From positions 1 to 46,462 of the forward strand of contig NZ_JAQOSO010000028.1 of NCBI RefSeq assembly GCF_030068505.1: a stretch of 46,462 nucleotides of DNA. Reading direction: 5' to 3'. The DNA comes from Roseofilum capinflatum BLCC-M114 (GTDB lineage: Bacteria; Cyanobacteriota; Cyanobacteriia; Cyanobacteriales; Desertifilaceae). Of the stretch, positions 24,592 to 38,499 are shown one piece after another. The notes beneath the pieces were generated by a model. That model ran no database searches. It saw only the letters and a program-made list of their open reading frames with translations, and was not told the origin of the DNA. The translations under genes were made by a program, and so were the position numbers. Every line of letters begins with the position of its first letter. Position 1 is the first letter of the stretch.

Positions 24592-26196
24592 CTATATCTT
24601 CTGACTCATGGCTAAATGCTGTTTCAGGGTTTCTACTGATAGGGTTCCTTGGATATGCTGCCAAGGTAAAATTCTGTCAGTTGACCAGTTTTCATGCACA
24701 TAATCTTCTAAGTCAGGAACTTGTCCTTGAAAATGCTTAAACGCTTGCCGATAACTCCCTAGGGAATCCCCGGAGTTTTGCGTGAATTCTAGGATATGGG
24801 ATAAGCGGCGATCGCCCCTAGAAATAAGTGCTTGAATCACCGACCAGTTGTAACTCTCTGGGCGGAACTGTACGCCCATTTTTCCTAATCCTTTTTGTAA
24901 GAGCTTTAATCGTTTCTTGGCTTGGGGGTTTACCCCATACCATTGAAAGGGGGTATGAGCTTTGGGAACAAAGGTGCTACATCCCAAGGTTAAGCGCAAT
25001 CCAGGCGCAGCTTTTTTCAAGTCTTGCATTAAGTCTAAGGTAGGCTCTAAATCCTCGACTTCTTCTCCGGGAATGCCTACCATACCATAAAATTTAATTC
25101 CTTTGAGTCCTCCAGCTTTGGCGTTAATGGCAGCTTGGAGTATTTCGTCTTGTTGCAGTTTCTTATTCACAATGGCTCGCAATTTTTCCGATCCACTTTC
25201 GATGGCAATGGTGATCGAGCGGCTATCCCGTTGACTGAGAATGCGGGCGAGTTTTTCGGTGACTGTATTGGTGCGGACGGAAGCTAGACTTAAGCGCACT
25301 TGGTCGTATTTGGGTTGACTGAGATAATCGAGAAGGGTATTAAATTCGGGATGTTGGGTGACGGAAGCGCCTAATAATCCCAGCCGGTTGGTGAATTTTA
25401 ATCCTTGTTCGATCGCCGGAATTAATCCTTCTTGTAAATTCGCTGTCCGAAAGGGTAAGGTCAGATAACTGGCTAAACAAAATCGGCAGAGTTCGGGACA
25501 AGACCTGACGACTTCTACCATATAAATGTTTTCCCAGGCTGCTTGTGGGGTAACGACTCTAGAAGCGAGGAGGGTTGTACCGCGATAGGTTTGTTTCGTG
25601 GGTCGTTCGGGAATGGTATCCTCAAGGGGAGTAATTGCGGCGATCGCCCCCGTAGGACTCTCGTAGGTTACCTCATATAAACTGGGTACATAAATTCCTT
25701 CTCCCTGAGCCAGATATCTCAATTGCTCTGCTCTTGATGCACCCCGCACCTGTTGATAGCGGGCAATGAAGTCCCCTAATAACTGTTCTCCATCCCCCAA
25801 TAAAATCACATCAAAAAAGTCGGCAAAGGGTTCTGGATTGGCTGTTAATACTGGGCCACCGCCGAAAATTAGGGGATGATGGGGGTGGCGCTCCTGGCTC
25901 CGTCTCGGTATGCCTAATTGATCGAGCAGGGCCAAAATATTGCCATAGTCCAATTCCCAGGATAACGAGAAACCAAGCAGTTCAGCCTGTCTGGGCAGTT
26001 TTTCCTGCCCATCGGTAAATAAACGACTCACAGCCACGTCCGATCGCTGGCATAACTGCGACCAAATCACCTGATAACCTAAACTGGTGATGCCGATACT
26101 GTAGCTGTTAGGAAAGGCGAAGATTGCCGGAATAGCAGTGCTTTCAGGAGAGGCTGGAGAGAATAGAAGCTGTTCTTCATGCAGGGGAATAGACAA
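24592..26196 (-). CDS. B12-binding-domain radical SAM protein
   Basis: The protein has 534 residues. The N-terminal part (about 20-150) has a cobalamin-binding-like Rossmann region, with LIFGGGPVLTANPEPFADFFD and ILLGDGEQLL typical of this group. The radical SAM core follows, with [4Fe-4S] cysteines C233, C237 and C240 in the CPELCRFC motif, and then KIKFYGMVGIPGEEVEDLEP-type strands. It belongs to the cyanobacterial radical SAM proteins related to the YgiQ/TIGR03960 kind. Substrate and reaction are unknown, and there is no functional neighbour to suggest one. Confidence 0.85.
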   Translation of the reverse strand: MSIPLHEEQLLFSPASPESTAIPAIFAFPNSYSIGITSLGYQVIWSQLCQRSDVAVSRLFTDGQEKLPRQAELLGFSLSWELDYGNILALLDQLGIPRRSQERHPHHPLIFGGGPVLTANPEPFADFFDVILLGDGEQLLGDFIARYQQVRGASRAEQLRYLAQGEGIYVPSLYEVTYESPTGAIAAITPLEDTIPERPTKQTYRGTTLLASRVVTPQAAWENIYMVEVVRSCPELCRFCLASYLTLPFRTANLQEGLIPAIEQGLKFTNRLGLLGASVTQHPEFNTLLDYLSQPKYDQVRLSLASVRTNTVTEKLARILSQRDSRSITIAIESGSEKLRAIVNKKLQQDEILQAAINAKAGGLKGIKFYGMVGIPGEEVEDLEPTLDLMQDLKKAAPGLRLTLGCSTFVPKAHTPFQWYGVNPQAKKRLKLLQKGLGKMGVQFRPESYNWSVIQALISRGDRRLSHILEFTQNSGDSLGSYRQAFKHFQGQVPDLEDYVHENWSTDRILPWQHIQGTLSVETLKQHLAMSQKI

Positions 26197-26484: not shown

Positions 26485-27567
26485 ATGAAATCGAGATCAA
26501 CCTATTTAAAGGGGAAAGCACAAACCGTGGTTAGTCTTCATCGAGAGGGGGTACACCGGGATACATTGGTTCCGCGCGAAGAGGGGGACTTTAATCCAGC
26601 CAGTCTATCCATGATTACCCTTGCCGATCAAGCCGATCTCCTTTTTGAACAAGCCAGGATTTCTCAGCAACAAGGAAATGTGAAACAAGCTCAAGCCCAT
26701 TGGCAAGAGTGCTTAACCCTCTATGAAGCGCTGCAAAACCATCAGCGAATGAGTCAAATCTTGGGTTATTTAAGTCATACCTATTATGCCCAAGGGGACT
26801 ACGATCGCGCCATTGCATATCAACAACAACGATTAGAATTAGCCCACGAACTGGGTAATGTACGCCTAGAAGCTCAAACCTGGGGCAATTTAGGCAATGC
26901 TTATCGCCATCAAGGAAACTACACAGAAGCTATTGCTGCTGAAAGTCGCAGTATTGAACTGGCGCAACAAATCGGAGAGGATCGCCTATTAGCGATTGGT
27001 TATAACAATTTGGGCCTGGTTTACAAAGCTCTCAACGACTTACCGGAAGCGATCGAATACCAAACTCGAAGTTTACACCTGATTCAAGAGCAAGATAACC
27101 CCCTAATGGAGAGCCAAATTTTGCGGAACTTGGCCAACGCCCACCATGCCCTAGGGAATTCCGATAAAACCATCGACTATTACCAACAACTCCTAGCATT
27201 AGCTCGGAGAACCAACAATCAACGTTTAATCACCAAAGTGCTAAGAAACCTAGGCAATACGTTCCACACTTTGGGAGACTACGCCCAAGCAATTACCTAT
27301 TATGAAGAACGGCTACACTTAGCCGAACAAATGCAAGATCAACGGGTAAGAGAACAAACCCTAGGCAGTTTAGGGGTGGCTCACGATGCCCTCGGTAACT
27401 ATCAGAAAGCAACTCACTATTACGAGCAGCGCTTGCAAATTGCCCTACGCCTCAAAGACAAACGCTTAACTGGACAAACTCTAGGCAACCTAATTGTTGC
27501 CTGTAGTGCCCTCGGTGACTTGCTGAAAGTGGAGCAATACCGAGAGCAACGCAAAGCACTGGCTTAG
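26485..27567 (+). CDS. TPR protein of the Rapsyn/LGN-like tandem 40-residue type
   Basis: The 360-residue protein is made almost wholly of TPR units of about 40 residues (from about residue 45), each with a pattern such as GNLGNAYRHQGNYTEAIAAESRS, then LGNTFHTLGDYAQAITYYEERL. This long-spaced TPR type occurs in LGN/GPSM and kinesin light chains, where it binds peptides. The first 40 residues are different and basic (MKSRSTYLKGK). There is no signal peptide or catalytic domain, so it is probably an adaptor protein. It ends with four bases shared with the convergent DUF362 gene. Confidence 0.85.
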   Translation: MKSRSTYLKGKAQTVVSLHREGVHRDTLVPREEGDFNPASLSMITLADQADLLFEQARISQQQGNVKQAQAHWQECLTLYEALQNHQRMSQILGYLSHTYYAQGDYDRAIAYQQQRLELAHELGNVRLEAQTWGNLGNAYRHQGNYTEAIAAESRSIELAQQIGEDRLLAIGYNNLGLVYKALNDLPEAIEYQTRSLHLIQEQDNPLMESQILRNLANAHHALGNSDKTIDYYQQLLALARRTNNQRLITKVLRNLGNTFHTLGDYAQAITYYEERLHLAEQMQDQRVREQTLGSLGVAHDALGNYQKATHYYEQRLQIALRLKDKRLTGQTLGNLIVACSALGDLLKVEQYREQRKALA

Positions 27568-28529
27568 GAAACGTTCTGAGCTTGATAGGCGCTGATGGGT
27601 TCTTTAATTAAGCGAATATACAAATGTTTAAATGTAGATTTAATCACCCGTGGCATTCCAAAATCAATGGGTTGCATTCTATCGGGTAACTTCCAATCGG
27701 CGATCGCCAACTCCTGGGGATGACACAAGGGAAACTCCACAGCCTCCTCAGCATAACACCCCGCCGCCAGAGCCGCCTTATGGGTAGGAACCATCATGGG
27801 ATCGACTCCCAACAGCTCCAACAGGCTCAAGTCTAGAGCAAACACATCCTCAGATGCCCCTAAAATGCCCAGGAACCGGGGTGTACCGTTCATCGGCCCA
27901 TTTCCCTCATGGGCAATAATCCCATCAATAATGGTCAAATTTGGCGCAAGGGTACGAGCTGTTTCTACAAGCATCGCCCCAAATTCTTGGGGATTTTTCC
28001 CGGCTTGCATATGCCACCATGCCTTCATTTTACCGGGCACACAGCCAAATAAATTCTTAACCCCCAAGGTCATAGTCAACTGTTGATGGGATTTAATCTT
28101 GGGTAAATTAATCACCACATCTGCCTCCATCGCTTCCTTAGAGAGCAACAAATGACCCCAGCGATCGCCCTCCGTTTCATATCGTCTTCCCCGAAATTCT
28201 ACGATCGGTAATTCTACCTCCTGCAAAAATGGTAAATAACCATTAGACTGAGCCACCCCTTCAGCCGTGCCAAACGCCGGACTATCGCCCAAAAAGGGGA
28301 TACCTCCCGCTTGTTTGACCAACCGCGCAACCTCAACAACTAACTCCGGACGAGTCACACACTCATTTTTCGGTCGCGATCCCGTTAAGAGATTGGGCTT
28401 CAGGAGAACGCGATCGCCCGGTTTAACCAGCGACTCGATCCCTCCCAGAGGAGCCAAAACCTGCACCAAAGCAGCCTGTAGAGCTTCGCGATCGTAGGAG
28501 TTGGCCCGCACAAAACTAACTGTAGTCAT
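27564..28529 (-). CDS. DUF362 protein
   Basis: The protein has 321 residues from the ATG at 28529; an in-frame start 33 bases upstream is less like the family. It has DUF362 motifs: VLLKPNLLTG (about 40-49), GDSPAFGTAEGV, VVINLPKIKSHQQLTMTLGVKNLFGCVPG, and IIDGIIAHEGNGPMNG. Many relatives carry a C-terminal 4Fe-4S ferredoxin module with four cysteines; this protein has none, so it is the short form. The activity is unknown. It is 50 bases downstream of the oxygenase cluster on the same strand, but nothing else ties it to that cluster. Confidence 0.8.
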   Translation of the reverse strand: MTTVSFVRANSYDREALQAALVQVLAPLGGIESLVKPGDRVLLKPNLLTGSRPKNECVTRPELVVEVARLVKQAGGIPFLGDSPAFGTAEGVAQSNGYLPFLQEVELPIVEFRGRRYETEGDRWGHLLLSKEAMEADVVINLPKIKSHQQLTMTLGVKNLFGCVPGKMKAWWHMQAGKNPQEFGAMLVETARTLAPNLTIIDGIIAHEGNGPMNGTPRFLGILGASEDVFALDLSLLELLGVDPMMVPTHKAALAAGCYAEEAVEFPLCHPQELAIADWKLPDRMQPIDFGMPRVIKSTFKHLYIRLIKEPISAYQAQNVS

Positions 28530-28580
28530 TGTATTTTTTAACCCGTTCACCACTAAGCACAAGATAGCACGATCAACTCA

Positions 28581-29519
28581 TTACACTAACTCTTGAGCGC
28601 GACCGCCTCCCGTTTTCTCCACCCAAATGGAATTAAAATTTTTCAACATAATCTCAGTCGGATTGATCTTTTCATCGCTGCCGATGGGCTGAAAAACGGC
28701 ATTCACCTTGGGATAAACAAAAAATGGAATCGAAATCCGACTTTTCGCCAGAGTATGAATCACTTCATGGGGAGTGCTGATAAATAAGCCATTAGTCCAC
28801 AGTTGTAACATATCCCCTAGATTCACCACAAAGGCATCTTTGAGACAGACCGCATCAATCCAAGCCTCTTTAGCGTATACACGCAAGGAAGGGTTGGGAA
28901 AATATTCCTGGATTAAGATCGTGAAAATCCCATTATCGGTATGTTTCCCGGCAATCCCACCTTCGGGGGGATAATGAATGGTGCGATGGATTAAGATCGG
29001 TTCATCAAAATAAGGGTCAAAGTAATCGGGTTCCTGCCCTAAAGCAACGGCTAATCCTCGTAAAAGATGGGGAACAATTTTGGTCAGAATTTCCCCTTGA
29101 AGCTCATAGTGACAGGAGGCAAAACCCGGAGCTACCGTATCATCAGGAATCAGGGTGGTTCCGGTAAAAGGTTGGTCAGCATGGGGGCGTTCTATGCCTA
29201 AATCAAACAGCTCTTTGGGATCGGGCCCTTCTTCTCCATTGAGAGCTTCACCATAGAGGGGGCTGTATCCTCTACAGGTATTTGGATAAACAGTTTGTTT
29301 GTCTTGACTATAGGCTTTTTTCGTTTCTTCCGGCAACTGGAAAAAATTGCGAGAAGCCTGAATGGTTTTCTGGACTAATTCGGAGGAGATACCATGATCT
29401 TTAAGATAAAAAAATCCATGCTCTAAGCAAGTATCATATAGCCGTTTGTGTTCTTCATTTCCGGAGGGAGAACTTGATTTTTTAAGTTGGGCTAATGAAA
29501 TAATCGGTAACGTATTCAT
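28581..29519 (-). CDS. 2-oxoglutarate/Fe(II) oxygenase, IPNS-like (copy 1)
   Basis: The 312-residue enzyme of the isopenicillin-N-synthase-like 2OG dioxygenase family probably hydroxylates or desaturates a small molecule. The N-terminal DIOX_N part is at about 4-110 (EHGFFYLKDHGI, RGYSPLYGEALNGE, KELFDLG). The C-terminal 2OG-FeII domain has iron ligands H193 and D195 (GKHTDNG) and H251 (STPHEV). The likely 2-oxoglutarate contacts are R261 and S263 (RISIP). It is the last gene of a seven-gene run on the minus strand and a close tandem copy of the gene at 29682. Its substrate is unknown; within this cluster an amino-acid or betaine substrate is plausible. Confidence 0.88.
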   Translation of the reverse strand: MNTLPIISLAQLKKSSSPSGNEEHKRLYDTCLEHGFFYLKDHGISSELVQKTIQASRNFFQLPEETKKAYSQDKQTVYPNTCRGYSPLYGEALNGEEGPDPKELFDLGIERPHADQPFTGTTLIPDDTVAPGFASCHYELQGEILTKIVPHLLRGLAVALGQEPDYFDPYFDEPILIHRTIHYPPEGGIAGKHTDNGIFTILIQEYFPNPSLRVYAKEAWIDAVCLKDAFVVNLGDMLQLWTNGLFISTPHEVIHTLAKSRISIPFFVYPKVNAVFQPIGSDEKINPTEIMLKNFNSIWVEKTGGGRAQELV

Positions 29520-29589
29520 TTGTTTTTCTCCTAATTGTTAATCCCATAGGTAACGATATAGGGCTTGTATCTGCACTGATTATATCATC

Positions 29590-29624
29590 TTTTAGTCCTC
29601 TCCCATCACGAGAGAGGACTAAAA
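29590..29624. repeat. Perfect 13-bp inverted repeat between the two oxygenase genes
   Basis: TTTTAGTCCTCTC (29590-29602) and GAGAGGACTAAAA (29612-29624) pair perfectly around a 9-base loop. The 3' side in either direction ends in A residues, not a T-tract, so it is not a clear intrinsic terminator for the minus-strand transcript. It may be a processing or stabilising hairpin between the two genes. Confidence 0.7.
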
Positions 29625-29681
29625 ACCCTTAATTGCCAAACTATACGATCAAACACTTAGGGGGCAATCTAGGAGACCGGT

Positions 29682-30623
29682 CTATTGTGTTAATTCTTTA
29701 GCACGACCTGAACCGGATTTATCTACCCAGATAGAGTGAAAATTCTCTAACATTACGTCAGTCGAATTGATAGTTTCCTCGGTTCCCATGGGCTGAATCT
29801 GGGTATTGTGATTGGGGAAAACAAACAAGGGAATAGAAATGCGAGTCTGAGGCAGTTTGTGAATGACTTCGTGGGGGGTACTGACAAATAAACCATTCGT
29901 CCAATATTGCAACATATCCCCCAAATTGATCACAAAAGCATCCTCTAAACATCCCGCATCAATCCAAGCATCTTTCGCATACACTCTTAGGGAAGGAGTG
30001 GGGAAATATTCCTGAATCAAGATGGTAAAAATGCCGGTATCTGTATGTTTTCCGGCAATTCCTCCAGAAGCAGGGTAGTAAATGCTTCGATGGATTAAAA
30101 CGGGGTCTTCAAAGTAGGGATCAAACCAATGGGGGTCTCGGCCCAGGGCAACCGCTAATCCTTGTAACAGGGGGGGAACTACTTGATTCATAATTTCCCC
30201 TTGAAGCTGATAATGGGATGAGGCAAAACCGGGAGCGACTTCGTTATCAGGAACAACAGTTGGCCCGGTAAAGGGTTTATCGGATGGAGGGCGTTCTAAA
30301 CCTAAATCAAAGAGTTCTTTGGGATCGGGCCCCTCCTCTCCATTGAGGGCTTCACCATAGAGGGGGCTGTAGCCTCTAGAGGTTTTTGGATAAACAGTTT
30401 GCTGGTCGTGACCATAGGCTTTTTTAGTTTCTTGGGGAAGTTGAAAAAAGTTTCGAGAAGCGTCTATGGTTTGCTGAACTAACTCTGAAGAAACGCCATG
30501 ATCTTTGAGGTAAAAGAAGCCGTGTTCTAAGCAAATGTTGTAAAGTCGTTTATGTTCTTCATTTCCGGATGAATAACTGAGATCTTTGAGTTTTTCTAAT
30601 GAGATTACGGGTAAGGTATCCAT
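29682..30623 (-). CDS. 2-oxoglutarate/Fe(II) oxygenase, IPNS-like (copy 2)
   Basis: This 313-residue paralogue of the preceding enzyme aligns with it end to end with no gaps until the last residue, and most positions are the same. The active-site residues stay in place: H193, D195, H251, R261, S263. Differences are scattered; segments such as EGPDPKELFDLG are identical, while the stretch after residue 110 (RPPSDKPFTGPTVV) and 275-295 vary more. This is a tandem duplication with retained catalytic residues. The two enzymes may do successive oxidations on one molecule. Confidence 0.88.
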   Translation of the reverse strand: MDTLPVISLEKLKDLSYSSGNEEHKRLYNICLEHGFFYLKDHGVSSELVQQTIDASRNFFQLPQETKKAYGHDQQTVYPKTSRGYSPLYGEALNGEEGPDPKELFDLGLERPPSDKPFTGPTVVPDNEVAPGFASSHYQLQGEIMNQVVPPLLQGLAVALGRDPHWFDPYFEDPVLIHRSIYYPASGGIAGKHTDTGIFTILIQEYFPTPSLRVYAKDAWIDAGCLEDAFVINLGDMLQYWTNGLFVSTPHEVIHKLPQTRISIPLFVFPNHNTQIQPMGTEETINSTDVMLENFHSIWVDKSGSGRAKELTQ

Positions 30624-30737
30624 TAGTTAATGAGCCTCCGGGTTGGGTAGTTCTCCTTTTTTCTACAAAATTAGGTTAAATAATGTATTCAATGGAATTA
30701 TACCATGAAAAGGGGGCTTAATTATAGAAATTCTGGG

Positions 30738-31496
30738 TTAATCAATGCGTAGTCGCTGTTCGTATAGTTTTTCATAATAGGGTAAACAATACTTATAAGC
30801 TTGCTGCAAATGCTCGTTGTCTTCAATCTTCACATAATTGTTGGGTTTCGTTGGTTTAAATCCTTGACTCGATTGGACTTGTTTATGCCAGCTTTTCCAT
30901 GGAAGGAGTTCTGGTTGTTGCTTGGCTTCCCAGGTTAAGGCTTGAGGGAGAAAGGGAATGCCCACTGCATGACAATAGGCTTTGACAGTTGCTTCTGGTT
31001 TATGGACTAAATCATCGGAATCAATCAAAGGGGGGACTTTTCCCAGATAATTTTTGGTTGCTTCAAACAAGTGGTAAATTGCTGCATAGCCGGTTTCGAC
31101 TAGACTAAAATCGGGCCGACGGGCGAAGAGGGAGGGAAGGGCTTTAGCTGGATGGCGAATCAAGAAGGTGTTCTCAAAGTGGGATAAGAAGGTTGGATCG
31201 GCCCGATCGCAAATACAACGAGCCATATCTTTCATAAAGATTTTTTGGCTTTGGGCCTTATCAATCAGGCTTTGCAAGACGGGTTGAAAGCTCTTGGACT
31301 TCTGAATGTTGTCATCACTATAGCGATCGCTCTTTCTTTCCTCGCTACAGCAAAAGTACAGACCAAAGGGTTCGTGAAGAACCAAAAAGTCTCCCCTTTG
31401 GCGCATCATGGTTTCAAAAGCAGTAGAAGTCGATCGCGGCACTGCCCAAAGTGCAAGTATTTTTTGCATCAGAAAATTTCTCCCAGTGTCAGCCAT
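30738..31496 (-). CDS. Sulfotransferase-like protein
   Basis: The protein has 252 residues from the third ATG-type start (31496), which has AAAGG at good spacing; other in-frame starts are at 31502 and 31469. The front matches the 5'-phosphosulfate loop of PAPS-dependent sulfotransferases: ILALWAVPRSTSTAFE. A later stretch FLIRHPAKALPSLF fits the 3'-phosphate-binding region (R-x-P-x-x-x-x-x-S). A general-base His is not obvious; LVLHEPFG is a candidate. It would add sulfate to an alcohol or amine, but many proteins of this fold remain untested. It lies 29 bases after the enolase-superfamily gene, so the two are likely co-transcribed. Confidence 0.75.
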   Translation of the reverse strand: MADTGRNFLMQKILALWAVPRSTSTAFETMMRQRGDFLVLHEPFGLYFCCSEERKSDRYSDDNIQKSKSFQPVLQSLIDKAQSQKIFMKDMARCICDRADPTFLSHFENTFLIRHPAKALPSLFARRPDFSLVETGYAAIYHLFEATKNYLGKVPPLIDSDDLVHKPEATVKAYCHAVGIPFLPQALTWEAKQQPELLPWKSWHKQVQSSQGFKPTKPNNYVKIEDNEHLQQAYKYCLPYYEKLYEQRLRID

Positions 31497-31525
31497 AACC
31501 ATCCTTTCATCTGTACCCAGACCTA

Positions 31526-32629
31526 TTATTGATAGACGGCAATGGGTTCACCCAGCACCTCCATAATCGGCTCTACCCCTAATCCTGGCCCCTCTGGAGC
31601 CACCGTTTTACCCCCTTGACCCCGCGGCCCACCCGTGGCTGTATTCACTGTCAGCATCTCATGGCACAACCACGTCGCCCGCAGGTGAGTCGCTGGAGTA
31701 GACTGGGCCAAATGCACCGATCCCGCATCCCCGATCGCACTGCCCCCCGTCACCTCAATATTCATGCGAATCCCCGTTTCCACACAGAAATCCCGAATCC
31801 GCTTGGCCTTCGTCAAACCTCCCACCCGACCAATTTTCAACCCGATCGCCTCACACGCACGATCCCCTTGAGCGCGAACGATATCCCCATAGCCCTGAAT
31901 GCATTCATCCAGGATAATCGCATGATTCGTTAGCCTCCGCAGTTGTAAGCACTCTTCATAAGTTTCACAAGGTTGCTCAAAATAGAGAATCGGCTCTTTC
32001 ACCGCATTCATCACCCGCATCCCCTCATCCACCAACCAAGCGCGGTTCACATCAAAGGTCGCCGTTTCATCGGGGGGTAAATATGCACCAATGGCTTTAA
32101 TGCGCTCAATATCTAAGGCCACATCTGCGCCAATTTTACAGGTATGGACTTTTTCTCCCCTAGCTTGACCCCGTTTAATCGACTCAATCATGCCCTCTGG
32201 AGTATCTGTGGGCACAGAATTTTGAATCGTAATCTCTTGGTCAATGCGACCGCCAAACAATTCACACAGGGATAATCCCGTGAATTTGCCCAGGATATCC
32301 CAACAGGCCATATCCAGAGGGGATTTAATGTAGGGATGACCCGGTAGAGCCATATCCATCGCCCGATACACAACATCGATCCGTCGGGGGTCGAGGCCAA
32401 TCAGTTGGGGCGCTAACTCCTCAATTCCCGCCCGAATACCTCTGGGAAAGGCGGGTAAATAAGTTGACCCCCAAGGGCAGCCTTCCCCCCAGCCCCGGAT
32501 GCCTTCATCCGTATCCATGGCGATAATGGTGGAATCGAGTTTATCAAAGTACAATCTTCCTCCAGAGAGTCGGTAGGGATGCTCCAGGGGTAAGGTCACT
32601 TGATAGACGGTGATTTTTGTGATTTTCAT
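31526..32629 (-). CDS. Enolase-superfamily enzyme of the hydroxyproline betaine epimerase/C3LHypD type
   Basis: This 367-residue member of the mandelate racemase/muconate lactonizing enzyme group has two catalytic lysines, K165 (TCKIG) and K265 (GLKIGRVGGLTK). The metal ligands are D193 (FDVNRAW), E218 (FEQPC) and D241 (LDECI). The patterns WGEGCPWGSTY, GHPYIKSPLDMACWDILGK and APEGPGLG match the clade with 4-hydroxyproline betaine 2-epimerase and cis-3-hydroxy-L-proline dehydratase, so proton removal alpha to a carboxylate on a cyclic amino acid is plausible. The real substrate is unknown. It is separated from the dehydrogenase gene upstream by a MITE-like insertion. Confidence 0.82.
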   Translation of the reverse strand: MKITKITVYQVTLPLEHPYRLSGGRLYFDKLDSTIIAMDTDEGIRGWGEGCPWGSTYLPAFPRGIRAGIEELAPQLIGLDPRRIDVVYRAMDMALPGHPYIKSPLDMACWDILGKFTGLSLCELFGGRIDQEITIQNSVPTDTPEGMIESIKRGQARGEKVHTCKIGADVALDIERIKAIGAYLPPDETATFDVNRAWLVDEGMRVMNAVKEPILYFEQPCETYEECLQLRRLTNHAIILDECIQGYGDIVRAQGDRACEAIGLKIGRVGGLTKAKRIRDFCVETGIRMNIEVTGGSAIGDAGSVHLAQSTPATHLRATWLCHEMLTVNTATGGPRGQGGKTVAPEGPGLGVEPIMEVLGEPIAVYQ

Positions 32630-32653
32630 AGAGTTTTAGGCAAAAGTGTTGAA

Positions 32654-32791
32654 TTGTAGTGCCGTGACACAGCTAAAATAGGGCTTTGTTTGTAGTAAGC
32701 ACTTTAGTGCTTAAAAGCCTAGCTGGAGATGGCTTGAGCAATCACTACAAACAAAATCTATTGCATCAAATTAGCTGTGTCACGGCTACAA
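32654..32791. mobile_element. MITE-like palindromic element
   Basis: The outer ends are long imperfect inverted repeats: left TGTAGTGCCGTGACACAGCT, right (reverse complement) TGTAGCCGTGACACAGCT. An inner pair, TTTGTTTGTAGT and ACTACAAACAAA, lies further in. The whole element of about 138 bases has no coding capacity. It lies between the dehydrogenase and enolase-superfamily genes of the cluster. No clear target-site duplication is visible. Confidence 0.7.
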
Positions 32792-32829
32792 GGATTGGTA
32801 ATTATAGCTGTTTAATCGGACTTGGTATT

Positions 32830-32852
32830 ACTAGCGAGCGAGACGCTCGCAC
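32830..32852. repeat. GCGAGCGAGACGCTCGC-type hairpin repeat
   Basis: GCGAGCGAGACGCTCGCACTCC is a palindrome of a kind found scattered between cyanobacterial genes. It lies between the MITE-like element and the dehydrogenase stop codon. Confidence 0.6.
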
Positions 32853-32927
32853 TCCTCGTATTGCTTCATTTTATTGCGGTCACGGGACTACCCGCTTTTC
32901 ACCATTGGGCAATGGGAGAGCTAGGGA

Positions 32928-34238
32928 TTAACTCAGATGCTTGAGGATTTTGGTTAAAACCGGGAGCTTGGCGTGACGACCGAAGTCAAAGGATTGGATT
33001 TTGGGGACAATGGCTGGATCGGGTTGGTAGGAGGTTATATTATCAAATACCCAACAGGTTCCACAACTCCAGCGAATCACATCCTCGATTAATTGGTCGC
33101 TTAAGCCCATGTTTTTGCCCAGGTGGTGAGCTTCCCCTAAAATCAGGTAGTTGATATAGGCCATGAAGTCGGTGAGCGATCGCGCCATATCCATTAGAAT
33201 TGGATCGTCTAAGGGTTCCGGTGCAGGATATTGGAGTTCGTAGGGACGGGGTTTGATGCGACCGAAAATATCGCTGATTTTTTCCTCAGAATGAATATAG
33301 CTGCGATTCAAACCATAGGGAGAGGGAGCGGTAAAATGGGGCACTCTCAGATTCACCCCATTATCCTCTTCGATCAGCTTAGTGACTTTCACATGGTTAT
33401 CATGGGCATCATATTTCTGTCCCGCTTCCCGGTATCGTTCTTCGATGATGCGACCGATGGGGAGGGGAACGTTGAGTTCGTTGGCTAAGTTTACCGTCAA
33501 GTCCGTATCTTTAACGGTGATTTCTAGGGAGCAGGAATAGTCGTAGCTGCCGTCAAAAATAAACGGGGTAACTTGCTCGGCCACGAAGCTACTGCCTTGG
33601 GAAGAGCGGATTAAATCCCACATCCAGAGCAGGGGAATGCCATAGATTTTACAAATCATCAGCACTTCGCCCACGGTCACCATGCCGGTGTAGAAGAGCA
33701 GGTTGGTCAACAGTTTGATGGTCTGTGCTTCGCCGATGGTGTCACTGACAAAGAACGAGATTTCGCCCATGGAGTCCAGGGAGCCTTTACTGAGGTCGTA
33801 GCCTTGGCGATCGCCGCTCACATAGAAGCTAACGTTACAAAAATCAACCCCCATATGCGAGAGATTACTAACCGGCGACTCCAGACTAAAAATCCCTTTT
33901 TTCCTCGCTTCTCTGGCAATATTTTGGGTATTGTGGTAGTCCGTTGTCGAGAAATCCATCCAAGTTGACCCCGGTCTCATCCCTTCCACCGCTCCACTCG
34001 GCCCTAACATATTCTCTAAAACATGATGGGGTAGGGGCAAATTGGTAATCACTAAATCTGAGCCTTGAGCCGCTTCTTTGGGGCTGTTTTTCCAGATGGC
34101 TCCTTTGGCAATCACCGGCTCGGCCGCTTCTTTGTACTTATCGTACACTTGCACGTGATAGCCATCTTTGAGCAGTTTGTAGATCATCTGCTTGCCCATA
34201 GCGCCTGTGCCAATATAGGCAATTTTTTGCTTACTCAT
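32928..34238 (-). CDS. Beta-hydroxyacid dehydrogenase-like protein with duplicated helical domain
   Basis: The 436-residue protein has a Rossmann NAD(P) domain (1-165, GTGAMG at 10-15) followed by the helical domain of 3-hydroxyisobutyrate/6-phosphogluconate-type dehydrogenases. The catalytic lysine is K175 (QTIKLLTNL). Family members are usually about 300 residues; the extra 130 residues contain a second copy of the helical region. Residues 177-219 and 355-397 align without gaps with 13 identities (including L-T, Y, G-E, K, G, D, I-R, S and G). In the second copy the catalytic Lys position is Arg (R353). The enzyme would oxidise a beta-hydroxy acid or reduce the matching carbonyl or imine. 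It lies 22 bases after the MDR gene. Confidence 0.83.
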   Translation of the reverse strand: MSKQKIAYIGTGAMGKQMIYKLLKDGYHVQVYDKYKEAAEPVIAKGAIWKNSPKEAAQGSDLVITNLPLPHHVLENMLGPSGAVEGMRPGSTWMDFSTTDYHNTQNIAREARKKGIFSLESPVSNLSHMGVDFCNVSFYVSGDRQGYDLSKGSLDSMGEISFFVSDTIGEAQTIKLLTNLLFYTGMVTVGEVLMICKIYGIPLLWMWDLIRSSQGSSFVAEQVTPFIFDGSYDYSCSLEITVKDTDLTVNLANELNVPLPIGRIIEERYREAGQKYDAHDNHVKVTKLIEEDNGVNLRVPHFTAPSPYGLNRSYIHSEEKISDIFGRIKPRPYELQYPAPEPLDDPILMDMARSLTDFMAYINYLILGEAHHLGKNMGLSDQLIEDVIRWSCGTCWVFDNITSYQPDPAIVPKIQSFDFGRHAKLPVLTKILKHLS

Positions 34239-34260
34239 CCGTGAGTTTCCTTTCTCTTAC

Positions 34261-35331
34261 TTAAGGATTGTTTTCAGGCGTAATTACAACTTTGCCAAAA
34301 AAGCTTTTGCTTTGAAAAAATTTCTGCGCCTCTTGCATTTGACTCAGGGGAAAAACTTTAGCGACTGGAGGTTTCAACAGACCTCGTTCGATATATCCGA
34401 GCAAATTCTGAAATACTGCGGGTTCATAACGGTTGCCTCCATGCATCTCTACATCTTTGTAGATCAGATCTCGCAAATCCAGCTCAACCAGTGGCCCGGC
34501 GATCGCTCCAGAAGTCACATACCTTCCACCCACCACAAGGCTCTTGAAGATCAGACTAAAGTATTCTCCGCCCACTACATCTGCAACTACTGTAATTTCA
34601 TGCTTCCCAACATTAGAAGCAAGTTGGTCATCTCGGCAATAAGCATAATCAGCACCCAACTCCTTAGCTAAATGCTCTTTGTTTGCTCCCACAATCGCAA
34701 TCACAACTGCGCCTCGAATTTTCGCTAATTGTATGGCTGCACTGCCCACACCACCGGAAGCTCCTGTAATCAGGACTGTATCTCTAGCTGCGACTCTCGC
34801 CTTAGTTAACATATTCTCTGCTGTGGAATAAGCACAGGGCAGCGTTGCTAACTGAGTATCCGGTAGAGGGGAATTAATGGGGTAAGCATTAGTCGCAGGA
34901 ACTACTGCATATTCAGCAAAACCTCCATCGAGTTCGCTGCCCACATACTGATATTCTGCGAATTGAGCAGTACGAATCCAAGGATATACAATCACCCGTT
35001 GATTGAGGGTTTCTGGCGCGACACCCTCACCCATTCCGACAACTTTTCCCACGATATCAGCTCCCTGAATACGAGGAAATTCTACTCCTAGCTGATTCCA
35101 GGTTGCTTTTCCTCCTTCGTTGGTCTTTGTATCTTGCAGAATTTCTTGAAATCCTTGATCTGCTGCATACCAACCTGTACGAGTATTGATATCTGCATTG
35201 TTGATCGAACAAGCTCCTACTTTAATCAGGATTTCTCCTTTCTGGGGGGTTGGTTTAGGAACTTGAGTATAAACTAATTGTTCTGGGCCGCCATATCCGT
35301 TGAGAAGGACGGCATTCATTAATTCTGTCAT
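34261..35331 (-). CDS. MDR-family zinc-free oxidoreductase (quinone reductase-like)
   Basis: The 356-residue protein is of the medium-chain dehydrogenase/reductase group. The N-terminal GroES-like domain (to about 155) has NAVLLNGYGGPEQLVY and FPRIQGADIVG, and the Rossmann domain has ITGASGGVGSAAIQLAK (about 188-204), the quinone oxidoreductase-type nucleotide motif. The structural zinc cysteines are absent and no catalytic zinc ligand set is seen, so it is probably an NADPH-dependent reductase of a quinone, enone or activated C=C. An insertion (about 60-85: LQDTKTNEGGKATWNQL) enlarges the N-terminal domain. It precedes the hydroxyacid dehydrogenase by 22 bases. Confidence 0.85.
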   Translation of the reverse strand: MTELMNAVLLNGYGGPEQLVYTQVPKPTPQKGEILIKVGACSINNADINTRTGWYAADQGFQEILQDTKTNEGGKATWNQLGVEFPRIQGADIVGKVVGMGEGVAPETLNQRVIVYPWIRTAQFAEYQYVGSELDGGFAEYAVVPATNAYPINSPLPDTQLATLPCAYSTAENMLTKARVAARDTVLITGASGGVGSAAIQLAKIRGAVVIAIVGANKEHLAKELGADYAYCRDDQLASNVGKHEITVVADVVGGEYFSLIFKSLVVGGRYVTSGAIAGPLVELDLRDLIYKDVEMHGGNRYEPAVFQNLLGYIERGLLKPPVAKVFPLSQMQEAQKFFQSKSFFGKVVITPENNP

Positions 35332-35378
35332 AGGTGTTAATAGTCGGGGGTAAAAGTCTCTCTTCCTGGGGAAAGGGA

Positions 35379-35515
35379 TTTTCCTTCGGACATGAAAGGG
35401 AGAGGGCGCAACCTTTAGCTAATAGTCGTTTGCCCTCTTCCCCCAGCCCCTTCTCCCGTGGGAGAAGAGGGGTAAGAAGTCCCTCTCCCTGGGGAGAGGG
35501 ATATAGGGAGAGGGC
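35379..35515. repeat. Repeat block in the methyltransferase-MDR gap
   Basis: The 188-base gap between the two genes is almost wholly repeat sequence. It has a shortened TTTTCCTTCGGACATGAAA element (35379-35397), then CCCCTTCTCCCGTGGGAGAAGAGGGG (about 35450-35470) and CCCTCTCCCTGGGGAGAGGGATATAGGGAGAGGGC-like hairpins. The last block recurs at 45285-45320. Confidence 0.75.
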
Positions 35516-35519
35516 TTTC

Positions 35520-36233
35520 TTAGAGAACCTCAAACGCCCAATAGTGAGCGCCTTCTTCGGCAATATAGGGGCCATCGATGATGGAGCTAACGAGCTTCAC
35601 TTTCTTCTCGGCTTGTAGGCGATCGCACTCTTCTTGGAAGTTAGTGCTATCGTAATAGCTCTTCCGGGTGCTGACGACCACCAGACCACCGGGTTTGGTA
35701 AACCGGATCATCTCTTCTATAGCAGTGGGGGGCACATGACCCAGGGTAAACACCCCGCAACTAATGGAAGCATCATACTGGTTATCGGCATAATACTTGA
35801 TCCGTTGGGTCAGATCGCATTCTGTTCCCCCCTCTAGCTTCCGATAAGAATCGGTTTTTTCTGCCGCTTCCACCATCCCTGGGGAGATATCAAAACCATC
35901 CACATTCTTATAACCTTTGCGACGCAGAGCTACACCGACCAATCCTGTACCACAACCCGCATCTAGGATTTCGATCTCTGGATCGCGCAAATTCAGGAAT
36001 TTACCAAATTTTTTGGGTAATAAATCAAAATAGGCACTAATGTATTCCGGGCCACAATACGCTTCATTTTCTACATCATGGTCATACTTTTGAGACCACT
36101 GGTCATAATAGTCTCTGAGGACATCAGCATCGCCAGAAAGCTTGTGGGCTTCCTTGATCGCATCAAAACTGCTCTGATTTTCTTCGGTTTTGACTTGACT
36201 TGTATTGCTCACAACTTGTACCTTGGGTAACAA
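35520..36233 (-). CDS. SAM-dependent methyltransferase (METTL27-like)
   Basis: The 237-residue class I methyltransferase probably methylates a small molecule. The front has DYYDQWSQKYDHDV, typical of the Williams-Beuren protein 27-like group. The SAM site is LDAGCGTGLVGVALRRKGY (motif I, about residues 90-108) with an acidic residue in VDGFDISPGMVEAA, followed by YDASISCGVFTLGHVP (motif IV) and MIRFTKPGGLVVVSTR. It is the first gene of the seven-gene run, with about 275 bases of repeat-containing DNA upstream. The site methylated is not known; an N-methyl or O-methyl transfer is possible. Confidence 0.85.
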   Translation of the reverse strand: MLPKVQVVSNTSQVKTEENQSSFDAIKEAHKLSGDADVLRDYYDQWSQKYDHDVENEAYCGPEYISAYFDLLPKKFGKFLNLRDPEIEILDAGCGTGLVGVALRRKGYKNVDGFDISPGMVEAAEKTDSYRKLEGGTECDLTQRIKYYADNQYDASISCGVFTLGHVPPTAIEEMIRFTKPGGLVVVSTRKSYYDSTNFQEECDRLQAEKKVKLVSSIIDGPYIAEEGAHYWAFEVL

Positions 36234-36510: not shown

Positions 36511-38397
36511 TCACCGTAAAGGAAAATAACCCCTGGGAGTAATCATCCATTGACCTTGGGTTCGGGTCGTGGGATTACCGATGAGGACGGTGGTTAACAT
36601 ATCAATGTCGAGTTGGGCAAAGTCTTCTAATGTGGTGAGGGTAATTTGCTCGTTTTCCCGATAGGCACAGCGTACAAGAGCGACGGGGGTTTGGGGATGA
36701 CGATATTGGAGGAAGATGTCTTGCGATCGCCGAATTCCCTCGGTGCGCTTCTGGGATTTCGGGTTATAGATAGCGGTGACAAAATCCCCCTGTGCAGCCG
36801 CTACTAAGCGCTTTTCAATCACTGGCCAAGGGGTTAACAGGTCGCTTAAACTAATGGCACAAAAGTCATGCATTAGGGGCGCTCCCACCCGTGCAGCGGC
36901 CGCTTGTAGGGCGGTAATTCCGGGGAAGACTTGGACTCCGGGAACTTGGCCATCCCAACCTTGGTTTTGCAGTTCCTCTAAGACTAATCCGGCCATGCCA
37001 TAAATGCCACAATCTCCGGAGGAGACCATGGCCACGGTTAACCCCCATTGGGCTAATTCTATGGCTCGTTCGGCCCGTTGGCGCTCTTGGGTGATGGGAA
37101 ACTGTTCAATGATTTGACCGGGACGACGCAGGGGGGCGATCAGGTCTAAATATAACCCGTAGCCCAGAACAGAATCGGCTTGTATAACGGCGGCTTGGGC
37201 GGCTGGAGTCATCTGTTGCAGCGCTCCGGGCCCCATGCCTACTAACCACAGTTGACCGGTTCGGGCGGTATATTCTTGGGGAGATTGGGCGATCGCCACG
37301 GTAACCGCTCCAGATAAGTCCCGAAAGCGATAGATTTGCTTCGTCACCAACAGTTCAGAGACCCCGGCCGCAGTCAGGGCGGCGGCTTCGGCAACGCTGG
37401 GTGTACCCACCGTTTCGGCGACCAGCGCCGAGGGATTGGGCACAGAAACCCCCTTTAACTGCTCTGATGGGAAGGGGATCAAGGGCCAGCCTTTCGCCTC
37501 ACACAGAGCCAATAACCCCGGCTCATCGGCCTTGCGATCCAGGGTGGCAATACCAGCGATCGCCCCTTCTGCCAGATGTGCAGCAGCCAGAACCTGCTCC
37601 AACGCTTGGGAAATCACCCGCTCATCGGTTCCCCGTTCGCACCCCATCCCCACCCACAACACCCTCGGATGCCATTGCACCTTGGGAAAGGTTCCCTTGG
37701 GGGTAAACTGGCGCTGGGTGGCGCTGATCCAAACCCTGGCTCCTGCGCTGCTAGAGTCGAGTTCAAATGCAAAGGGATGATCGTTGGGGAGATGTTCTTG
37801 CCACAGGGTTGATCCGGCATCTTGAATGACTTGTACAGAATGTTGTTGGGCGATCGCCGCGCTCACTCCTGTCCAGTCTCCGCTTCCTCGTCTCCATCCG
37901 AAGGGCAACCCCAAGGTATCGATCGCCGGTAAGTTGAGGCTATCACAAGCACCGGTAACGATCGGCGCTGCTCCCAATTGGGTCGCGACTAACCGCGTCA
38001 GGCGATCGGCTCCTCCCTGATGTCCCCCACAAACACTAATCACATGGTTTCCCGTTTCATCCACCACCACCACCGCCGGATCGGTGCTTTTATGGTTCAA
38101 TAGGGGAGCAATCAGGCGCACTACCGCACCCACAGCTAACCCAAAGATCAACCCTTGATGGTTTGACCAGAGGGTGGGTAAGTAGTCTGATAAGCTACCT
38201 GGATAGACTTCATAGGATTGACCTTCCTGTAGGGGCGAGGGGCCCCTCGCCCCAGTTTTTAAGGCAGTATGGCAAGACGGAGAGACGATCAGCTCTGCTC
38301 CCAGGGACTCGGTAAGGGGAAACAGACGATAAGCCGATCGGGGTGTCGTGGCGATCGCCACCAGAGACCCTACCTCAACATTCCCAGATTGAACCAT
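36511..38397 (-). CDS. cobJ: CbiG-CobJ fusion (precorrin-3B C17-methyltransferase)
   Basis: This 628-residue fusion is typical of cyanobacteria. The N-terminal CbiG-like half (about 1-380) opens the delta-lactone of the cobalt-factor intermediate; it has GLAVGAVVRLIAPLL, VVVVDETGNHVISVCGGHQGGADRL and the C-terminal CbiG part VLWVGMGCERGT. The CobJ/CbiH half (about 385-628) does the ring-contracting C17 methylation: LWLVGMGPGALQQMTPAA, SSGDCGIYGMAG, VFPGITALQAAAARVGAPL. The start at 38397 has AAAGGAG eight bases upstream; a GTG 24 bases before it is less likely. A near-perfect palindrome interrupts the CbiG N-terminal coding region (38232-38253). Confidence 0.93.
   Translation of the reverse strand: MVQSGNVEVGSLVAIATTPRSAYRLFPLTESLGAELIVSPSCHTALKTGARGPSPLQEGQSYEVYPGSLSDYLPTLWSNHQGLIFGLAVGAVVRLIAPLLNHKSTDPAVVVVDETGNHVISVCGGHQGGADRLTRLVATQLGAAPIVTGACDSLNLPAIDTLGLPFGWRRGSGDWTGVSAAIAQQHSVQVIQDAGSTLWQEHLPNDHPFAFELDSSSAGARVWISATQRQFTPKGTFPKVQWHPRVLWVGMGCERGTDERVISQALEQVLAAAHLAEGAIAGIATLDRKADEPGLLALCEAKGWPLIPFPSEQLKGVSVPNPSALVAETVGTPSVAEAAALTAAGVSELLVTKQIYRFRDLSGAVTVAIAQSPQEYTARTGQLWLVGMGPGALQQMTPAAQAAVIQADSVLGYGLYLDLIAPLRRPGQIIEQFPITQERQRAERAIELAQWGLTVAMVSSGDCGIYGMAGLVLEELQNQGWDGQVPGVQVFPGITALQAAAARVGAPLMHDFCAISLSDLLTPWPVIEKRLVAAAQGDFVTAIYNPKSQKRTEGIRRSQDIFLQYRHPQTPVALVRCAYRENEQITLTTLEDFAQLDIDMLTTVLIGNPTTRTQGQWMITPRGYFPLR
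38232..38253. repeat. Perfect 22-bp palindrome inside the cbiG-cobJ coding sequence
   Basis: The sequence reads GGGGCGAGGGG followed by its exact reverse complement. The flanking CTGTAGGGGCG (38227-38237) also occurs between genes at 36453-36463, which marks the palindrome as a copy of a dispersed repeat. In frame, it encodes about eight residues (GARGPSPL) between CHTALKT and QSYEVYPG, in a variable loop. Confidence 0.85.
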
Positions 38398-38499
38398 CGC
38401 TTTCTCTCCTTTTCCCCGCACCCTGTAGGGACTGTAAAATCCATCATACCTTGTAATCTAAGGATTGATCGTGCTTCAGGGTGCTGCTATTGAAGTAAG

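Follow-up and report, generated by a model that had tools for sequence, protein, structure and literature searches.

A five-gene set shared by distant cyanobacteria and giant sulfur bacteria, a candidate pathway to a small amino-acid-like metabolite

What task, if any, do the seven enzyme genes share that lie side by side at positions 28581-36233 of contig NZ_JAQOSO010000028.1 from the cyanobacterium Roseofilum capinflatum BLCC-M114 (the whole stretch analysed, 46,462 nucleotides, is called the window below)? An earlier note, made from the letters of the DNA alone, had read them as one co-directional unit encoding an undescribed small-molecule pathway. All seven are indeed complete open reading frames (ORFs) on the minus strand, transcribed in the order MT, MDR, HDH, ENO, ST, OXB, OXA, and Pfam agrees with the families guessed for every one of them: a methyltransferase (MT), a medium-chain reductase (MDR), a hydroxyacid dehydrogenase (HDH), an enolase-superfamily enzyme (ENO), a sulfotransferase (ST) and two 2-oxoglutarate (2OG)/Fe(II) oxygenases (OXB and OXA, jointly OX). 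Comparison across genomes shows that the conserved unit consists of five of these genes, MT, MDR, HDH, ENO and OX, whose grouping is conserved in distant cyanobacteria and also in two giant sulfur bacteria. In our judgement the balance tips modestly towards the locus being an accessory biosynthetic cluster whose product is a specialised metabolite, small, polar and amino-acid-like. The likeliest product class would be an N-methylated, hydroxylated amino acid resembling a betaine. Most strains would make it as a free compound; where a nonribosomal peptide synthetase (NRPS) gene is adjacent, it may serve as a building block.

The restricted and coincident distribution of the genes supports this reading. 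Among 291 cyanobacterial genomes (thresholds 1e-60 for ENO and MDR, 1e-50 for HDH, 1e-40 for OX and 1e-30 for MT), ENO, HDH and OX occur in the same two, the genome studied here and that of Leptolyngbya PCC 7375, while MDR is found in those two plus one further genome (3/291) and MT in those two plus two others (4/291). The earlier note would have given up the pathway idea had homologues been scattered through related genomes; close homologues are not scattered. A scan of genome contigs yielded 255 ENO relatives, and the best 80 of these, together with regions from other genome scans, point to 16 cyanobacterial genomes with a close ENO: five of our own genus (ENO is present in five of its six genomes, our own included), two of Okeania, three of Hormoscilla or the same genus, and one each of Symploca, Moorena, Richelia, Calothrix rhizosoleniae, Prochloron and Leptolyngbya. 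MT, MDR, HDH, ENO and OX lie together in 13 of the 16 (two of the loci, L012 and L013, are partly cut by contig ends), and likewise in two gammaproteobacteria, Candidatus Thiomargarita nelsonii (L019) and Candidatus Achromatium palustre (L023), so that the recurrence which the earlier note had proposed to look for is found, with shuffled gene order and other spacers. The three exceptions, two Okeania and one Symploca, each have a contig end near: MT is not in the stretch of Okeania L008; HDH alone of the other four stands beside ENO in Okeania L009, whose MDR is on another contig; and the Symploca locus, which starts at a contig end, has no more than a fragment of MT, MDR not being found in that genome. 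Seven genes are thus more than the unit that recurs, ST and the second OX being optional and both missing from the stretch of R. acuticapitatum L006. The features of the locus are as follows.

35520-36233, minus strand: MT, class I S-adenosylmethionine methyltransferase, core gene (Pfam Methyltransf_11/25; nearest solved structure METTL27)
35332-35519, no strand: MT-MDR spacer of 188 bp with dispersed repeats
34261-35331, minus strand: MDR, quinone-oxidoreductase-like medium-chain reductase, core gene (Pfam ADH_N + ADH_zinc_N)
32928-34238, minus strand: HDH, beta-hydroxyacid-dehydrogenase family, core gene (Pfam NAD_binding_2 + NAD_binding_11)
32630-32927, no strand: HDH-ENO spacer of 298 bp, largely dispersed repeats
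31526-32629, minus strand: ENO, muconate-lactonizing-type enolase-superfamily enzyme, core gene (Pfam MR_MLE_N + MR_MLE_C)
31472-31510, minus strand: scar left where an EamA-type transporter gene was deleted, 13 codons long, MKGWLWLTLGEIF-stop (gene full-length in L006, L007 and G291)
30738-31502, minus strand: ST, sulfotransferase family, optional gene (Pfam Sulfotransfer_5, PF19798)
29682-30623, minus strand: OXB, 2OG/Fe(II) oxygenase (Pfam DIOX_N + 2OG-FeII_Oxy)
29520-29681, no strand: OXB-OXA spacer of 162 bp, longer than its L007 counterpart
28581-29519, minus strand: OXA, 2OG/Fe(II) oxygenase (Pfam DIOX_N + 2OG-FeII_Oxy), 74% identical to OXB

The core genes come in four orders among the loci. 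Most have MT-MDR-HDH-ENO-OX; Richelia and Prochloron have MT-MDR-ENO-HDH-OX, Calothrix rhizosoleniae has MT-ENO-HDH-OX-MDR, and Thiomargarita and Achromatium have HDH-MT-OX-MDR-ENO. Hormoscilla L014 has additional MDR copies. In a first ENO tree the cyanobacterial rows form one side of a branch with 100/100 support, and the two sulfur-bacterial ENOs cluster with Anaerolineales rows. In a second tree, for which 20 of 105 rows had been removed by hand (6 distant rows and 14 of the 16 ENO1-type), leaving 85, a constraint joining the sulfur-bacterial with the cyanobacterial ENOs (17 of the 85 rows) is rejected (approximately unbiased test, p-AU 0.0008). In the MDR tree, whose rows are restricted to MDRs lying near an ENO, the two sulfur-bacterial sequences fall within the cyanobacterial clade, on a joint branch supported at 100/100. 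Because one tree splits sulfur-bacterial from cyanobacterial rows and the other unites them, the same enolase family was apparently recruited twice into the same gene set. N137 and the pair Y216/Q245 are common to both ENO lineages and occur in no other row of the alignment, the nearest Anaerolineales rows having S137, F216 and K245; such sharing would be in keeping with a substrate that both lineages use, or alternatively with a branch that the tree has put in the wrong place.

What ENO itself might do is best approached through its residues and nearest structures. Residues were counted in 85 aligned rows, namely 83 ENO2-type, one ENO1 and one ENO3, the two remaining ENO1-type rows of the tree having been dropped. 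K165, D193, E218, D241 and K265 are present in all 85; we take the two lysines to be the catalytic pair and the three acids to be the metal ligands of the muconate-lactonizing subgroup. W320 is found in 83 of 83 ENO2-type rows, with Thr and Cys in the ENO1 and ENO3 comparison rows, respectively. In the structure 4e8g a Trp occupies the column that holds Cys in ENO3, an alignment that runs to W320 via ENO3 and is not direct; this Trp is presumably the cation-pi residue that packs on the betaine ammonium. The earlier note had placed ENO close to hydroxyproline-betaine epimerase. By bit score the nearest solved structures are instead 2qdd (388 bits), 3eez (367) and 4mgg (316), and the entries that we assume to be hydroxyproline-betaine 2-epimerases (HpbD; 4e8g/4izg/4j1o, 2pmq and 4h2h) follow at 177, 169 and 169 bits for 4e8g, 2pmq and 4h2h; we therefore reject a plain HpbD. 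The best NCBIfam model is NF043002, cis-3-hydroxy-L-proline dehydratase, which matches over the full length at 380.5 bits against an equivalog cut-off of 500, and this assignment is rejected as well. ENO resembles that dehydratase, which 4mgg presumably represents, in fold family and catalytic residues; it differs in falling under the cut-off and in having W320 where 4mgg has Thr.

The other proteins are recognisable members of their families, with peculiarities of their own. HDH has 436 amino acids (aa), against the usual 290-300 or so of the HIBADH family with its one C-terminal helical domain. When the protein is compared with itself by hhalign, 54 columns of residues 318-436 align with residues 160-300 (probability 89.8, E 1.8e-6 for a single comparison), and the predicted model (mean predicted local distance difference test score, pLDDT, 74.8) has long helices at 168-199 and 346-376; HDH thus appears to carry a second copy of the helical C-terminal domain. 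In a fold search the 50 matches listed aligned over 272-309 columns to targets of about 280-300 residues and did not cover the extra C-terminal part. K175 and N179, which we take for the catalytic Lys and following Asn of the family, are invariant in 14 rows. OXA and OXB both retain an intact HxD...H...RxS motif (H193, D195, H251, R261), presumably the catalytic set. The ST motifs RSTS and IR-P-AK-LPSL, which we assume to bind the 5' and 3' phosphates of 3'-phosphoadenosine 5'-phosphosulfate, are invariant in 8 rows (IRHPAKALPSL in the window, general form IR[HD]PAK). A search of PDB sequences was no help in identifying ST: the 60 listed of 488 matches were all antibody chains and spurious, with no credible solved homologue among them. 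At 1e-15, the genome studied here has, besides the cluster gene itself, one paralogue of ST outside the cluster, a Sulfotransfer_5-like protein with 31% identity (G000:C55:122667-123392); G003 has a match with 28% identity, and Leptolyngbya PCC 7375 has none. The start called for the ST ORF falls inside the transporter remnant; most homologues begin M[KN]KIL, and the true start is probably the ATG at 31469. For MT the TTG start is uncertain, and the GTG at 36206 is a candidate.

From these families a route can be sketched. OX would hydroxylate an amino acid or an amino-acid-derived acid; ENO, with its two lysines, would remove the proton alpha to the carboxylate, leading to epimerisation or to elimination of a beta substituent; MDR and HDH would set the oxidation state; and MT would methylate, most likely on nitrogen. 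Where present, ST might sulfate a hydroxyl, as decoration or as a leaving group, and an EamA-type protein would serve as exporter. The modified amino acid suggested in the earlier note is plausible, and the betaine-type demethylation genes near many ENO relatives (below) lend it indirect support.

Around the core the gene content is fluid. ST, a second OX, an EamA-type transporter, a TauD-type oxygenase, CmcI-type and other methyltransferases and a short-chain dehydrogenase/reductase are all optional. In the neighbourhood comparison the transporter gene occurs at 8 loci, with a fragment in L104, and it directly follows ENO both in L006, whose ENO is 99% identical to ours, and in L007. That the cluster has no transporter gene is true only locally, and is the outcome of a deletion that left the first codons at 31510-31472. 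L006 in turn has neither ST nor a second OX in its stretch and retains 47 bp of ST (L006:7259-7305, 100% identical to window 31365-31319), whereas L007 has kept EamA, ST and OXB. By this comparison the near-identical clusters have undergone reciprocal deletions, of EamA in the window and of ST and OXB in R. acuticapitatum L006, each with a scar. Inside the Calothrix rhizosoleniae cluster lie two glutathione S-transferase genes and a class I glutamine amidotransferase gene (L013:1369-3624), a combination reminiscent of conjugation to glutathione with later loss of the gamma-glutamyl group. An FAD protein with weak similarity to halogenases is encoded in L014, L032 and L107. Another accessory protein, U295, has 295 aa and no Pfam or NCBIfam match, with fragments in L011, L015, L016, L032 and L107; by eye it has an HHD...H pattern and looks like a phytanoyl-CoA-type 2OG oxygenase in layout, and its predicted structure (pLDDT 32.8) is too poor to use.

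Several observations weigh against a biosynthetic cluster for an amino-acid-like product. ENO reaches the cut-off of none of the NCBIfam models listed, NF043002 included, and the presumed HpbD structures score lower still; our ENO comparison covers the best 80 of the 255 relatives. HDH has ESPVSNL in place of DxPxSGG, which we take to be the usual carboxylate motif of its family, and this replacement makes its substrate uncertain. MT would fit O- or C-methylation just as well, and the residues that both ENO lineages share could point to an error in the tree. MDR and MT homologues also exist outside the set (in G166, G111 and G003), and around the lone MT homologue of G111 and the MDR homologue of G166 no further cluster query matched. 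Three of the 13 genomes have broken or truncated core genes, G291 (MDR, HDH), L032 (ENO) and G298 (HDH, ENO, OX), and G298 has a second ENO elsewhere (L106), beside which just a distant MT relative of the set is seen; the pathway is therefore dispensable, or dying, in some hosts. In the congener G291, MDR residues 1-59 and HDH residues 159-434 are all that is matched of the two proteins, back to back (L102:11724-11727), apparently through an internal deletion spanning both genes. Finally, since relatives of ENO, MDR and ST sit in apparently catabolic loci, the cyanobacterial set could itself be catabolic.

A first alternative, which we regard as unlikely, is that the five genes make or tailor a building block for a small nonribosomal peptide or peptide-polyketide, the window cluster being a remnant whose assembly line has been lost or lies elsewhere. 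Three genomes, of which two are cyanobacterial, have NRPS or mixed NRPS-polyketide synthase (PKS) genes within the cluster or next to it: in the congener G294 a 2832-aa A-PCP-KS-AT-MT-KR-TE protein with two carrier-domain matches is encoded between HDH and ST-ENO, in Thiomargarita L019 an NRPS-PKS comes immediately after ENO, and in Leptolyngbya PCC 7375 (L016/L111) an NRPS stands ahead of MT. The first adenylation (A) domain of the Leptolyngbya NRPS looks proline-like, and its second, like that of L019, glycine-like, as judged by eye from the specificity-code positions. On a short contig of G003 (L112:130-3976), genes for a thioesterase, a TauD, a CmcI-type methyltransferase and an MT relative follow one another; this may be an outlying representative of the cluster family. 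As biosynthetic neighbours, the assembly lines and this thioesterase also speak for the main reading. Against this, domain order differs among the three assembly lines, and tblastn with the L019 and Leptolyngbya assembly-line proteins finds none in the cyanobacterial stretches from 14 of the 16 genomes, those of the window and the uncut Moorena locus included. An orthologue of the G294 NRPS-PKS elsewhere in the window's genome was sought and rejected, the best PKS matches (50-57%) lying together on one contig (C84) whose genes we take as belonging to another pathway. The earlier statement that the locus has no PKS or NRPS thus holds for the window and not for the congener G294, L019 or Leptolyngbya. 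Small cyanobacterial NRPS/PKS clusters likewise resemble the locus in the assembly line in or beside it in three genomes and in its exchangeable tailoring genes, and part from it in those 14 of 16. NRPS-like tblastn matches were also obtained in five non-cyanobacterial ENO loci (L034, L068, L073, L077, L082). At one of these, the Acidimicrobiaceae ENO locus L034, an NRPS-like AMP-binding and carrier match lies directly before an MDR relative (L034:11732-13588).

The genes could instead form a catabolic or salvage module, with which marine cyanobacteria import and degrade an N-methylated or hydroxylated osmolyte; ENO would then epimerise or dehydrate, OX hydroxylate or demethylate, and MDR and HDH oxidise or reduce the fragments. 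We consider this quite unlikely. Its attraction lies in the heterotrophs. Across 66 other ENO loci, some on contigs too short to be informative, searched with queries from L017 and L066 (both among the 66), relatives of the FAD-GcvT demethylase occur in 45 (43 at 40% identity or more), a Rieske oxygenase in 36, an RpiR regulator in 34, MDR in 33 (32 within 3.5 kb of ENO), ST in 16 and a DMSP_lyase-type cupin in 12. Leisingera L066 (2218-14166) and similar roseobacter loci encode a Rieske protein, RpiR, FAD-GcvT, MDR, three differing enolase-superfamily proteins, a DMSP_lyase-type cupin and a class III aminotransferase; in L066 the best model for the Rieske protein is glycine betaine monooxygenase (154.6 bits, below the cut-off of 670), and the cupin matches Pfam DMSP_lyase. 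In Acidimicrobiia L017, ST, MDR, ENO1 and ENO2 stand in a row, and six gammaproteobacterial ENO loci hold a distant OX relative (24-27% identity). We infer that these heterotroph loci are catabolic operons. The cyanobacterial and sulfur-bacterial loci look different: queries for Rieske, FAD-GcvT, aminotransferase and RpiR matched in none of 12 cyanobacterial and neither of 2 sulfur-bacterial loci, several of them cut by contig ends, whose genes include MT instead; some also encode additional methyltransferases, a putative exporter (at 8 loci), glutathione S-transferases (L013) or an NRPS.

The same division separates the cluster from the known systems that it recalls. With the HpbD demethylation pathway it shares the enolase subgroup, both lysines of ENO, and the Rieske and FAD-GcvT genes near many ENO relatives, yet the cyanobacterial cluster has a methyltransferase and oxygenases and no matched demethylase. 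The betaine-type demethylation locus of Leisingera also has MDR near ENO2, with Rieske, FAD-GcvT, RpiR, cupin and class III aminotransferase in place of MT, HDH and OX. Leisingera ENO2 and ENO1 are apparent orthologues of 2qdd (682 bits) and 2rdx (653 bits), and neither PDB entry gives a specific function. 2qdd/3fvd, also without a specific function in the entry, is the best solved match of the window ENO, although its relatives lie with demethylase genes and not with MT, HDH and OX. A tentative and rather doubtful extension would be that marine cyanobacteria and giant sulfur bacteria make an undescribed methylated zwitterion which marine roseobacters, actinobacteria and gammaproteobacteria consume, it or a close relative, through mirror-image gene sets, so that the compound would be a new currency between producers and consumers in the sea. 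On the consumer side these sets would have the same enolase family (with 2qdd and 2rdx), often MDR, demethylases replacing the methyltransferase and, in some roseobacters, the DMSP_lyase-type cupin.

That the compound serves mainly as a compatible solute, built up to high levels and vented through mechanosensitive channels, seems to us improbable. Co-directional MscS-type genes do lie beside the cluster in L008 (5213-7402) and L019 (1438-4899) and beside the NRPS in L111 (6726-8897), apparently recruited separately, since the proteins are mutually just 25-31% identical over short stretches, and the named cyanobacterial hosts are marine or coastal. The channel is nevertheless confined to three loci; moreover, the cluster is rare and decaying in several hosts, and its variable decorating genes are untypical of an osmolyte. 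Chance neighbourhood or a housekeeping role is ruled out by the phyletic counts (2-4 of 291).

If a biosynthetic cluster is the right reading, Moorena, Okeania, Roseofilum and symbionts of sponges, ascidians and diatoms would have in common an unnamed pathway, one that standard cluster finders may well miss because most loci are without PKS or NRPS. Roseofilum is linked with black band disease of corals. The cluster would also offer a handle on solved enolase-superfamily proteins whose entries give no specific function: with one gene set for making the compound and another for consuming it, the substrate could be narrowed down from two directions. The enzyme families are all known; a search of the open-access literature at title and abstract level found no description of the gene set, whose combination and distribution are, as far as such searches go, undescribed. 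Passages of the Roseofilum (PMC9967302) and Hormoscilla (PMC6520454) genome papers cover PKS, NRPS, terpene and ribosomally synthesised and post-translationally modified peptide clusters and leave the five-gene set unmentioned.

Pieces of the HDH-ENO spacer (298 bp) have at least 40 matches across the genome and those of the MT-MDR spacer (188 bp) at least 62, each counting itself, both being lower bounds from scoring 40 of 178 and 40 of 240 candidates, respectively. In L006 the gaps, stop codon excluded, measure 20 bp for HDH-ENO and 66 bp for MT-MDR, the latter holding a short piece of similar sequence. Because the L006 gaps are so short, the HDH-ENO repeat is a later insertion and the MT-MDR repeat is longer in the window without being wholly new. 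The earlier suggestion of repeats added afterwards therefore suits the first spacer and only in part the second; the dispersed repeats of both are largely later additions.

Beyond the seven genes, nucleotide comparison of the window flanks with seven stretches of four same-genus genomes, several of them short, gave no match. Neither neighbour could be counted as a cluster member: the downstream DUF362 gene (27564-28562) and the upstream cobJ-type gene (36511-38421) had no tblastn match in 18 other loci. Further along, at 24592-26196, the window encodes a B12-binding radical SAM protein that is TIGR03960-like (287 bits against a cut-off of 462).

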